Source: Hufsiella ginkgonis (GTDB lineage Bacteria > Bacteroidota > Bacteroidia > Sphingobacteriales > Sphingobacteriaceae). Taken from it: a stretch of 64,000 nt of DNA. The position numbers and the translations under genes are program-made. Numbering within the stretch: position 1 is the first letter of the stretch; every line of letters begins with the position of its first letter. Under the pieces are notes generated by a model. It searched no databases. It saw only the letters and a program-made list of their open reading frames with translations, and had not been told where the DNA came from. Shown in pieces: positions 40,551-47,126 of the stretch. The stretch lies in contig NZ_WVHS01000006.1 in the NCBI RefSeq assembly GCF_009834915.1, positions 62,001 to 126,000 of the forward strand. The letters are read 5' to 3'.

Positions 40551-40587
40551 TTGTTAAAATGAGCGGGATTGTTAAAAACTGTTAAAA
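40551..40587 (+). promoter_or_regulatory. Phased GTTAAA repeats upstream of the type IX sorted protein
   Basis: TTGTTAAAA at 40551 and 40569 and CTGTTAAAA at 40579, with steps of 18 and 10 bases. The last copy ends exactly 70 bases before the ATG at 40657. A matching trio with the same 70-base distance precedes the gene at 47196. It could be an activator or upstream promoter element. Confidence 0.45.
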
Positions 40588-40632
40588 TCTAAATAATACG
40601 TTCAACGAAGAATATTATTGTTTTTTATTTTA

Positions 40633-40640
40633 TAATTTTG
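40633..40640 (+). promoter_or_regulatory. Bacteroidota -7 box of the sorting-domain protein gene
   Basis: TAATTTTG (TAnnTTTG) in a very AT-rich stretch, ending 16 bases before the ATG. The nearest TTG is only 12 bases upstream, too close for a normal -33 element. Confidence 0.4.
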
Positions 40641-40656
40641 TTTCAACACTAGCTGA

Positions 40657-41211
40657 ATGGTAAAATTTTACTTCACATCTTTCCGTAAAGTTTTCGTCCT
40701 GGCGACATTTATAGTCGCAGGAAGCCTCAGCGCGTCTGCTTTTAACAGCACCACTTTACCCGACACCACCCGCCGCGCGTCTAAATCCACGGTTAAGATC
40801 ACGGATACCCGGAAAGACCGTCCTTCAAACACCGGGGTTAAGATCAACTTTGTACCTTTTAAACCGGCGGAGCTTAAACCGATCGCGGGTAGCCAGGGTA
40901 CTCCCAAAACCGCAGCCGGCCAGCCGGAAAAAGACAGCAAAGATAACAAAGTCCTTACCAACCTGAAGGTGTTCCCGATCCCGGTTGACGACCAGATCAA
41001 TTTTTCTTACCACATTGCTAAAGACGCGAACGTCACCATCAAGGTCATGGACCTTCTCGGGAATGAGATCGCTACGCTCCTGTCGCAGAAAATGTCGGCG
41101 GGGGAACAGCTTAATACGTTTAACATTTCGTCAAAACTCACTACGGGTATTTATTTTATCCGCTTTGTAGTAGGTAACGAACCCGTGATCAAACGGATCT
41201 CGGTATTGTAG
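40657..41211 (+). CDS. Secreted protein with type IX C-terminal sorting domain
   Basis: A 184-residue protein with an N-terminal signal segment (FVLATFIVAGSLSASA) and a C-terminal domain from about residue 105: KVFPIPVDDQINFSYHI, VTIKVMDLLGNEIATLL, GIYFIRFVVGNEPVIKRISVL. This is the type A sorting domain recognised by the type IX secretion system. Between the two lies only about 70 residues of Thr/Lys/Pro-rich, low-complexity sequence, so there is almost no cargo domain. It may be a small surface adhesin, or a carrier whose sorting domain is the protein. PorT is encoded at 31.1 kb. Confidence 0.85.
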   Translation: MVKFYFTSFRKVFVLATFIVAGSLSASAFNSTTLPDTTRRASKSTVKITDTRKDRPSNTGVKINFVPFKPAELKPIAGSQGTPKTAAGQPEKDSKDNKVLTNLKVFPIPVDDQINFSYHIAKDANVTIKVMDLLGNEIATLLSQKMSAGEQLNTFNISSKLTTGIYFIRFVVGNEPVIKRISVL

Positions 41212-41284
41212 GTGAGCTGCCGGCTATAGCCCTGGGATTCTTCAAATTTCGCGTCATCACAATCTTTTCGTTGCCGCCTGACAA

Positions 41285-44160: not shown

Positions 44161-44193
44161 CCAGCGACGCGCGTTACGTTCTTATTATTCCGG
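44152..44193. other. Inverted repeat across the bcp-parC convergence
   Basis: CCGGAATAA (44152-44160, containing the bcp stop) and TTATTCCGG (44185-44193) are perfect 9-base arms around 24 bases. It could act as a weak two-way terminator, but no T tract follows. Confidence 0.35.
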
Positions 44194-44206
44194 CTCTCTC
44201 CTGGTA

Positions 44207-46942
44207 TCAGAACAGGTTGATCTGTCCCTTGTCGTCAATCTCGATATCGTCAGGGTTCGTGATCTCAAAATCCACCTTTTTGGGCGGTTTCGTTGTTTCA
44301 CGCGTTTCTGCCGGTGCGGGCGTTGGGGTAACCGGCGCATCATCGTCAGGTGAATCCGGGCCGTCGCTATCCGGCTCCCCAGGGTCTCCTGGTCCCTCCG
44401 GTTCTTCCGGTGATCCGGGCGCGTCATCCGGTTCTTCCGGTGAAGGCAGCAGTTCCACTTTTTTAACCTCCAGTTGCGAAAGCTTGTTGCCCTGGGCTTT
44501 CATCCCTTTCACGTCGATCAGGTCTGTGAGACTGATCTCGGTCGTTTCCATCACTTTGTTTTTGCCTGGCACCAGTTCAACGCTCACTACCGGGCGTTTC
44601 TCTCCAGAGATAACCACCAGCTTTGAACCCGGCTCTTCGCTGATAATGCGTGTTTGTTTGCGTAGCGCCGTGGTTTCGAACTTAAACCGCTTTACATAAT
44701 AGTTTTTTGATTTGCCGTCAAAGTGGATTACGGTGAACACTTTTTCCGGGTTATACTTTTCGATGAGTACCATCTTTTCATCGAAGTGATTGGTGAGATC
44801 GAAGGTGGTAAGCTCATATGTACCGGAGCCGGAAAACGTTAGGATTTTGTCATCCCCATCAAACTCGCCGAGGTATTTACCCCTTCCATCGGCGTTCAGT
44901 CGTCGCAGGATCTCGTCGTACCAGATCTTACGTCCTGATAGCGTGGATATTCCTTTGGTCTTTAGCGTGATCTTTTTAACCGGGTATTTGGTAACGATGT
45001 TTCCCTGCGAGTTACGTCCCTTGATTGCCACTTCGGCGAAATCCATATCGAAGGTGAGCTTCCTGAGCTTGGAATGCGGCTTAAGTGCGATGGTCACCAC
45101 TTCCGCCTCGCCATTTGGGTTCGCTGTGAAATAAACCGCTTTCGAGCCCCTGGTGCCCTTGGTCAGGTCATATTCTTTGTCGCGCGTAACACCGATCACC
45201 GAAAACCGTTTAATGTAAGAGGTGCCGCTCTGGCCGTCCCGGTAAACCATGTTATAAACCGTCCGCTCATCGTTCTTTTTAAATACCTGTACGTGGATAA
45301 TGTCTTTTCCAACGAAGACCTTATCCTGCACACGCGTAACGATGCAGCGTCCGTCTTCCCGGAACACGATGATTTCGTCGAGATCGGAACAATCGCATAC
45401 AAAGTCGTCTTTCTTCAGTCCGGTACCCACAAACCCGTCGATCCTGTTTACATATAATTTCACATTGGCAAGCGCCACCTGGGCCGCTTCTACCTTGTCG
45501 AAAGCCCGGAGCTCAGTTTTCCGGTCGCGATCCTTACCGTATTTATCGCGAAGGCGCTGGAACCAGGCGATCGCATAGTCGGTAAGGTGTTTCAGGTGGC
45601 GGTTAATCTCCCTGATCTCGTTCTCCAGTGCTTTCATTTGTTCATCCGCTTTTTTTACGTCGAAGCGGGTGATGCTGCTCATGGGCTTATCGATCAGTTT
45701 TTTATAATCTTCCGGGAGTATCTCGCGATAAAAGTGGCTGAGAAAGGGTTGGAACAAGCGGCCCAATACTTCCACTACGGTTTCGAAATTGCCGGCGCTT
45801 TCATAGTCAGCATGTTTATACATTCCTTCCCCGATGAAAATTTTCAACAGGGAACTAAAAAAGATCTTCTCTTTAAGGTCCCTAAGCCTGATTTCCAGCT
45901 CTAACTTCAGCAGGTCCCGGGTATAATGAGTGCTGTCCGCCAGGATATCGTTCACGCTCATGAACCGCGGCTTGTTATCGCGGATCACGCAGGTGTTCGG
46001 GGATACCGACACCTCGCAATCCGTAAACGCGTACAGGGCATCGATAGTAACGTCTGGCGAAATACCGGGTGTCAGGTGAATAATGATCTCAACATCCTTC
46101 GCGGTATTATCCTCAATTTTACGGATACGGATCTTGCCTTTGTCGTTGGCCGATATTACGCTATCGATGAGGCCTCCTGTAGTAGTAGAGAACGGGATCT
46201 CGGTGATAACCAACGTCTTTTTATCCCGTTCTACGATCTTGGCACGTACGCGGACCTTCCCGCCGCGCTGGCCCTCATTGTAGGCCGAACAATCGGCAAT
46301 GCCGCCTGTCGGGAAATCCGGCATCAGATTCGGCCGGTTTCCTTTCAGCACCTCTACCGAGGCATCGAGGAGCTCATTAAAGTTATGCGGAAGCACTTTT
46401 GTCGCCAGGCCAACCGCAATGCCTTCGGCCCCCTGCGCCAGCAACAGCGGAAACTTTACCGGAAGCGTTACCGGTTCCTTGTTACGGCCATCGTAGCTGA
46501 GCTGCCATTCGGTGGTGTCAGGGTTAAACACCACTTCGTTGGCGAACTTGGATAACCTGGCTTCGATATAACGTGGCGCAGCGGCGGAATCACCGGTAAC
46601 GGGATAGCCCCAGTTCCCCTGTTTATCGATCAGGAGGTCTTTCTGTCCGAGCTGTACCATGGCGTCGCCGATGGACGCATCACCATGCGGGTGATACTTC
46701 ATCGTATTCCCGATCACGTTGGCAGCCTTATTAAAGCGACCGTCGTCCATTTCCTTTAATGAATGAAGGATGCGCCGCTGCACAGGCTTTAACCCGTCGT
46801 TGATATGGGGCACCGCACGGTCAAGTATTACATACGACGCATAGTCGAGGAACCAATTTTCGTAAAGTCCGGTAACAGGAATAATATTATGGAGCTCGCC
46901 CGGCTGGCCGTCCACGTTCATATCTGTGTGTTCTTCGCTCAT
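44207..46942 (-). CDS. parC: DNA topoisomerase IV subunit A (ParC-type)
   Basis: The cleavage/religation subunit of a type IIA topoisomerase that decatenates chromosomes. The winged-helix region holds LKPVQRRILHSL and the active-site tyrosine in AAPRYIEARLSKF near residue 125. A coiled coil (about 420-500) and a beta-pinwheel C-terminal domain follow. The GyrA-box is not seen, and the paired parE nearby argues for topoisomerase IV rather than gyrase. Residues about 831-888 form a Pro/Glu/Asp/Gly-rich, probably disordered stretch before the short end FEITNPDDIEIDDKGQINLF. Length 911. Confidence 0.93.
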   Translation of the reverse strand: MSEEHTDMNVDGQPGELHNIIPVTGLYENWFLDYASYVILDRAVPHINDGLKPVQRRILHSLKEMDDGRFNKAANVIGNTMKYHPHGDASIGDAMVQLGQKDLLIDKQGNWGYPVTGDSAAAPRYIEARLSKFANEVVFNPDTTEWQLSYDGRNKEPVTLPVKFPLLLAQGAEGIAVGLATKVLPHNFNELLDASVEVLKGNRPNLMPDFPTGGIADCSAYNEGQRGGKVRVRAKIVERDKKTLVITEIPFSTTTGGLIDSVISANDKGKIRIRKIEDNTAKDVEIIIHLTPGISPDVTIDALYAFTDCEVSVSPNTCVIRDNKPRFMSVNDILADSTHYTRDLLKLELEIRLRDLKEKIFFSSLLKIFIGEGMYKHADYESAGNFETVVEVLGRLFQPFLSHFYREILPEDYKKLIDKPMSSITRFDVKKADEQMKALENEIREINRHLKHLTDYAIAWFQRLRDKYGKDRDRKTELRAFDKVEAAQVALANVKLYVNRIDGFVGTGLKKDDFVCDCSDLDEIIVFREDGRCIVTRVQDKVFVGKDIIHVQVFKKNDERTVYNMVYRDGQSGTSYIKRFSVIGVTRDKEYDLTKGTRGSKAVYFTANPNGEAEVVTIALKPHSKLRKLTFDMDFAEVAIKGRNSQGNIVTKYPVKKITLKTKGISTLSGRKIWYDEILRRLNADGRGKYLGEFDGDDKILTFSGSGTYELTTFDLTNHFDEKMVLIEKYNPEKVFTVIHFDGKSKNYYVKRFKFETTALRKQTRIISEEPGSKLVVISGEKRPVVSVELVPGKNKVMETTEISLTDLIDVKGMKAQGNKLSQLEVKKVELLPSPEEPDDAPGSPEEPEGPGDPGEPDSDGPDSPDDDAPVTPTPAPAETRETTKPPKKVDFEITNPDDIEIDDKGQINLF

Positions 46943-47086
46943 TTCAGCACGTTGATATTGATAATCAGGTACAAATGACCTGGTTAAAAAGAATGGCTTT
47001 TAGTAACTTTGCAACCGGTAAATATACTGGTTAAGGCGGCAACGCCCTAGTTTAAGTTTTTAACACTCCTCCTCCTCTTGTGTGAA

Positions 47087-47126
47087 TTGTTAAATTTTTG
47101 TTAAAATTTGAGCCAATTTGTTAAAT
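47087..47126 (+). promoter_or_regulatory. Phased GTTAAA repeats upstream of the NTF2-like gene
   Basis: TTGTTAAAT at 47087, TTGTTAAAA at 47098 and TTGTTAAAT at 47118, steps of 11 and 20 bases. The last ends 70 bases before the ATG at 47196, exactly as at the gene at 40657. A near-match to the -7 box, GAACTTTG, lies at 47164-47171. Confidence 0.45.

Follow-up and report, generated by a model that had tools for sequence, protein, structure and literature searches.

Phased GTTAAA repeats in Hufsiella ginkgonis as predicted operators of an RprY-like regulator with envelope targets

Introduction

How Bacteroidota sense and repair damage to the outer membrane is, to our knowledge and in our judgement, little known. 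In Escherichia coli, bamA, bamD and surA are mainly sigma-E targets; regulators of the PhoB type act at PHO boxes, which consist of direct repeats with a step of about 11 bp, placed upstream of the promoter. CpxR of Proteobacteria recognizes the site GTAAA-N4-8-GTAAA, usable in either orientation (PMC5063474). The genes for the RprX/RprY system are essential in Bacteroides fragilis, no reason for this being known (PMC4072883). In Porphyromonas gingivalis, RprY bound its own promoter in electrophoretic mobility shift assays, its regulon comprised oxidative stress, sodium and cytoplasmic chaperone functions, and the protein was proposed to be a repressor (PMC3646045). Here we compare with these systems a set of GTTAAA direct repeats in a 64,000-nt stretch of H. 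ginkgonis DNA (the window; coordinates are positions in the whole of it), which we read as predicted operators of one OmpR/PhoB-type response regulator, most likely an RprY-like protein, with an envelope-stress regulon and its own operon among its targets. We give this reading a probability of roughly 0.78.

A literature search on envelope stress response, Bacteroidetes, bamA and response regulator yielded only work on the lipocone superfamily. Neither an RprY operator motif nor an RprY envelope regulon was found in the literature covered, which included parts of PMC3646045, PMC6032018 and PMC5706477, the 2007 RprY study being outside its scope. Throughout, family refers to the family of the host, Sphingobacteriaceae, and phylum to Bacteroidota.

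Results

GTTAAA repeats in the window and in the genome

The initial annotation had described two trios of GTTAAA words at near-helical steps, each before a gene for a small secreted protein, and had proposed a single regulator for them. The letters of the window confirmed both the coordinates and the steps:

40551..40587, plus strand: trio A, GTTAAA starting at 40553, 40571 and 40581 (steps of 18 and 10), the last two words forming a 10-bp direct repeat
47087..47126, plus strand: trio B, GTTAAA starting at 47089, 47100 (an 11-bp repeat) and 47120 (steps of 11 and 20)
40657..41211, plus strand: gene A, a 184-aa exported protein with a type IX secretion type A sorting domain
47196..47636, plus strand: gene B, a 146-aa protein with a signal-peptide-like N-terminus (by eye)

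Gene B had no Pfam or NCBIfam match at E 0.001; its paralogue at C21:415317, which is 54% identical, is also preceded by a GTTAAA repeat. The longer word YTGTTAAAW occurs 11 times in the window as compared with 2.85 expected, a count that none of 100 shuffles reached. GTTAAA itself is present 52 times on the plus strand and 26 times on the minus strand, and the plus strand holds seven successive pairs within 31 bp, of which the trios account for four and the bamA site for one, while the minus strand has none.

A scan of the whole genome (5,208,024 bases in 25 contigs, with the reversed pattern as control) showed that the motif is not evenly common. GTTAAA-N4/5-GTTAAA gave 25 matches against 2 in the control, with 21 outside genes and 4 inside, and paired long words (YTGTTAAAW) gave nine matches at seven places against none. 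When all spacings from 0 to 30 were counted, 138 pairs were obtained against 43, and the 10- and 11-bp steps stand out because 25 of the 138 fall on these two of 31 spacings. The 16 intergenic sites with the 10-bp step have the consensus TGTTAAAAAnTGTTAAA. Over 101 genomes of the family, tandem pairs numbered 1784 against 680 in the control, 87 genomes being above their control, 12 below and 2 tied. Both the proposal of one regulator and the helical phasing of the words are supported by the genome-wide counts and by the conservation in relatives described below.

Around one of the 25 pairs (L020), no gene starts within 250 nt; the pair lies between convergent gene ends (L074:3658), where it may belong to an unannotated small RNA or small gene. 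Another (L012) lies inside a gene end, 120–129 nt before a lipoprotein-like gene, in this genome as in G017 and G038 (L246 and L255), and since it recurs in three genomes, some of the sites classed as coding may be real.

Genes downstream of the sites

Twenty of the 25 pairs precede a gene, and as two pairs share one promoter, they define 19 promoters (gene start within 250 nt). At 17 of the 19 the first gene encodes an exported protein, an envelope protein or a membrane kinase (export judged by eye). Family-model scans of 20 proteins and more identified, for assembly and proteolysis, BamA, BamD, a SurA-type isomerase, DegP/HtrA and a tail-specific S41 protease. Further targets were an OMP_b-brl_3 barrel, a DUF5686 protein, a CarboxypepD_reg-domain protein, a TlpA-like thioredoxin protein, MsrA (divergent from BamD), a DUF4890 protein beside an LTXXQ protein, a MoxR ATPase, BlaI with M56, and an FAD oxidoreductase. 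Four targets had no Pfam family, namely gene B and the proteins of L067 (304 aa), L071 (213 aa) and L082 (183 aa); the L067 protein has a type IX sorting tail barely over the cut-off (23.7 against 23). The expectation of small secreted proteins held in the window, where gene A is exported and gene B signal-like, and proved too narrow elsewhere, the targets being envelope genes generally.

Six relatives (G017, G038, G075, G040, G007 and G031, drawn from ten genomes with listed places) had sites before DegP (6/6), before the kinase gene described below (6/6), before gene A (4/6, all listed pairs of these genomes having been read) and before the L071 protein (4/6). This last protein (L071:2380-3018) matches the BamP assembly-protein model weakly (23 bits, cut-off 230). 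The surA site (L076:4288) is situated between surA and a divergent short gene (165–190 aa), and the site has the same position, between surA and a divergent short gene of this type, in G017, G038 and G040 (L240, L259, L296).

The kinase-regulator operon

One site lies 41 nt before a gene for a 696-aa HisKA/HATPase_c kinase, which is followed by the gene for a 230-aa regulator. The regulator carries Response_reg and Trans_reg_C domains, the arrangement of the OmpR/PhoB family of response regulators, and its best curated model is RprY (312.3 bits; next best, 175). Because this score is below the curated cut-off, we call the protein RprY-like and not RprY. For the kinase, PnpS was the top model among the best 25 of 81 listed (201 bits, cut-off 400), and we regard it as RprX-like by position. 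The kinase open reading frame (ORF) is directly upstream of the regulator gene in 75 of the 80 related named loci fetched, as in the genome studied; the five without a kinase ORF were dropped.

This was the most conserved site that we read. The N-terminal part of the kinase is present in 93 of 101 family genomes, and all 30 family loci read have the hexamer pair before the kinase gene, 19 of them as a triplet. Where the regulator of a named locus had 72% identity or more, a pair was found at 36 of 38 loci (shuffle mean 0.1); where it was more distant, at 9 of 37 (L156-L161, L188, L189, L191; shuffle mean 0.095). Some named loci and family genomes seem to be identical, L113 and L084 for instance having the same kinase promoter, and these counts therefore overlap. 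One of the distant records, L191 from B. reticulotermitis, encodes a regulator that scores above the RprY cut-off (426 bits), and GTTAA repeats precede the kinase gene there.

The bamA site and its loss along with the kinase

A pair reported at 25535–25553, reading in the direction opposite to bamA, is real, and its proposed link to the trios is supported:

25537..25552, plus strand: GTTAAAAAGTGTTAAA, between uppS and bamA and opposite to bamA, with cores at 25537 and 25547
22941..25499, minus strand: bamA, 852 aa (NCBIfam OM_YaeT, 315 bits, cut-off 297)

The site was found in 37 of the 49 family genomes read, comprising 37 of 43 with the kinase and none of six without it (Fisher p 7e-5, not corrected for kinship). 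In a first set of 30 loci, from which one truncated locus was dropped, it was present in 29/29 readable loci at the 5-letter level and in 22/29 at the 6-letter level; a second set of 20 further genomes, picked to include kinase-less ones, yielded 8. In agreement with this, the eight family genomes without a recognizable kinase contain 13 pairs against 48 in the control. In the kinase-less genomes other than G008 (five genomes, L309-L313), the gap between uppS and bamA is almost closed, as judged by eye, and bamA there seems to have lost its own promoter along with the site.

Distance to the promoter box

The box TAnnTTTG is the consensus for the primary sigma factor (PMC7366714, PMC9723704) and spans −12 to −5 (PMC9723704). 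At the kinase promoters of the 30 loci, this box follows the start of the last half-site by 32 bp in 24 loci and by 33 bp in 6, which places that start near −44. Two predicted promoters of seemingly different classes, one of them of the extracytoplasmic function (ECF) sigma type, follow the trios:

40633..40640, plus strand: predicted −7 box TAATTTTG (TAnnTTTG, primary sigma), 52 bp from the start of the last half-site of gene A, which lies near −64
47129..47157, plus strand: predicted ECF-sigma-type promoter TGTAAC-N16-CGTCTAT, its −35 element 29 bp and its −10 element 51 bp from the start of the 47100 half-site

Despite the apparent difference in sigma class, both window genes have a half-site 51–52 bp before a −10-type box. 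Both also have the last word ending 70 positions before the ATG (40587 to 40657 and 47126 to 47196, i.e. 69 nt between), as the initial annotation had emphasized. This distance is true of the two genes and is not general: in the same genome the separation of site and start codon ranges from 37 to about 190 nt, and gene A orthologues have 60 or 71 nt instead, so a functional constraint of 70 nt to the ATG was rejected. What is constrained is the spacing between site and promoter box. For gene A it is 52/53 bp in this genome, G017 and G038 (ATG at 70/71 nt) and 42/43 bp in G040 and G075 (ATG at 60 nt), a difference of one helical turn.

For gene B, 32 homologous loci were fetched and 26 counted, leaving out L037, L054, L058, L059, L061 and L064, in which the match starts within the gene or coding sequence occupies that place. 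The pair is conserved in 9 of the 26. An ECF-type promoter, by a pattern written after viewing these sequences, is present in 16 of the 26, and the 9 of these 16 that have the pair all have it at 29 bp. In the genome, TGTAAC-N15-17-CGTCTWW occurs six times (L303-L308; reversed control 1), both gene B paralogues included; another occurrence precedes the gene for an exported protein at C19:83015 (L305), with TTAAC repeats nearby.

We then measured distances at 68 loci, representing all 70 listed pairs of the six relatives, plus the 25 sites of this genome, taking the central site alone at loci with several and also admitting TAnnTTTAG/TAnnTTTGG as boxes; 18 of the 93 sites (14/68 and 4/25) were classed as coding, some perhaps through spurious ORFs. 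Up to 60 bp, the range to which the phasing test was confined, the distances were 32–33, 42–44 and 52–53 bp in one orientation and 28, 37–39 and 48–51 bp in the other, with a period of 10.5–11 bp. When every site was counted, none of 20000 uniform draws was as extreme in either orientation; per hand-chosen group, p was 0.006 for 7 groups and 0/20000 for 13 groups. Distances over 60 bp did not fit one series. Because the sites occur in either orientation and their distance from the promoter varies by helical steps, an upstream promoter element, the other explanation offered originally, is less likely.

Discussion

Given the observed sites, their enrichment, conservation and promoter phasing, the classes of their targets and their loss along with the kinase, the RprY-like protein is the probable binder of the GTTAAA repeats, activation would be its probable mode and envelope stress its presumed inducing signal. 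Under envelope stress, the sensor kinase would phosphorylate the regulator, which would then occupy operators made of direct repeats with the core TGTTAAAAAnTGTTAAA, 10 or 11 bp apart and in some cases three in number, its molecules lined up head to tail along a single face of the helix. From sites separated by whole turns of the DNA, it may recruit RNA polymerase carrying the primary sigma (TAnnTTTG) or an ECF sigma (TGTAAC-N16/17-CGTC), and so control how much BamA, BamD, SurA, DegP/HtrA, tail-specific protease and secreted protein is supplied, along with the products of its own operon.

Several observations weigh against this proposal. The regulator scores under the curated NCBIfam cut-off for RprY (312.3 < 370), and the RprX model was not among the best 25 of 81 models listed for the kinase. 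Two Sphingobacterium records (L148, L149) have no pair at the kinase promoter. Six genomes have the kinase and no bamA site; they belong to genera g5 and g8, and their kinases are among the most diverged by E-value. The kinase-less genomes represent few lineages, six of the eight being of one genus. In the genome scan, pairs at spacings other than the 10- and 11-bp steps likewise exceed the control. Outside the family the exact pair was not enriched (315 against 497 in the control over 114 genomes, made up of 154 against 191 in 25 genomes from other families of the class and 161 against 306 in 89 from elsewhere in the phylum), even though proteins related to RprY are present there. Finally, the published P. 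gingivalis regulon differs from the envelope assembly and protease targets predicted here, and a repressor role was proposed.

The best surviving alternative retains the RprY-like regulator and has the sites serve mainly for repression, which we consider unlikely. It agrees with the role proposed for RprY in P. gingivalis (PMC3646045). In front of bamA, about 12 nt separate the end of the repeat from a −7-like TAATTTAG (box assigned by eye), so that the repeat covers the −33 region. At the kinase promoter and both window promoters, in contrast, the repeat is around −44 or −64, which are more usual positions for activators, and it holds helical phase with the box. It is improbable, more so than repression, that the repeats belong to a different OmpR/PhoB-family member encoded in this genome, such as a PhoB-like regulator, with the kinase-regulator operon as just one of its targets. 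The genome does encode related regulators, 38–42% identical, and repeats of similar step and letters have been described for PhoB-type regulators. However, no other site read is as regular and as well conserved as that of the kinase operon, a pattern usual for autoregulation, and both the enrichment of pairs and the bamA site follow the presence of the kinase; no phosphate-uptake gene was recognized among 20 proteins scanned, on which ground a phosphate box was rejected. Sites of a LytTR-type regulator (AgrA-like, with GTTAA cores) are very improbable: LytTR repeats have similar core letters and are usually about 21 bp apart, and steps of 20–21 also occur here, but the 10-bp step dominates at the kinase promoters (38 start-to-start pairs against 8 at 21 bp) and the linked regulator has Trans_reg_C, not a LytTR domain. 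A chance occurrence in AT-rich sequence, or an up-element general to promoters, is the least credible of all, for although the words are AT-rich and the control already reaches 34 against 70 for the 10-bp step with one mismatch, exact pairs number 25 against 2, are conserved before the kinase and bamA genes, are used in both orientations and are associated with one functional class.

Operators of an RprY-like regulator therefore remain our preferred reading. A broader and more tentative proposal, which we hold to be possible and rather doubtful, is that systems of the RprXY type could constitute a general envelope-stress response of Bacteroidota, uniting the roles of E. coli sigma E and Cpx. 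They would act on promoters of both the primary-sigma and the ECF-sigma class, from one face of the helix and with nearly the same spacing to the −10-type box, and their operator word would have drifted outside the family. Phylum-wide enrichment of the exact pair was not found in the 114 genomes, so it is the kinase promoters that carry this proposal. If true, the proposal would account for the essentiality of rprX and rprY in B. fragilis through control of bamA, bamD and surA. With an operator sequence, a target list (bamA, bamD, surA, degP) and a rigid promoter geometry at hand, the question can be put to a direct test in harmless soil species of the family.

As compared with described systems, the locus resembles a PHO box in having direct repeats of similar step ahead of the promoter. 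It differs in that the Bacteroidota PhoB model gives the regulator 175 bits against a cut-off of 270, and in that genes for phosphate uptake were not recognized among the 20 proteins scanned. It differs from RprX/RprY in that the regulator is below the curated RprY cut-off. It resembles that system in having RprY as its best-scoring curated model (312 bits against 175), in the adjacent kinase gene, which is as reported for B. fragilis (PMC6032018), and in the conserved repeat before the operon, seen here in sequence alone, where P. gingivalis RprY binds its own promoter. From CpxA/CpxR it differs in its regulator, which is not CpxR (126.5 bits, cut-off 341), and in targets that include bamA, bamD and surA. 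The likeness to Cpx is in the site, GTAAA-N4-8-GTAAA being similar to the GTTAAA-N4-GTTAAA found here, in targets that comprise an envelope protease and small periplasmic proteins, and in the layout of the regulon, with direct repeats before envelope protease and chaperone genes and before its own operon.

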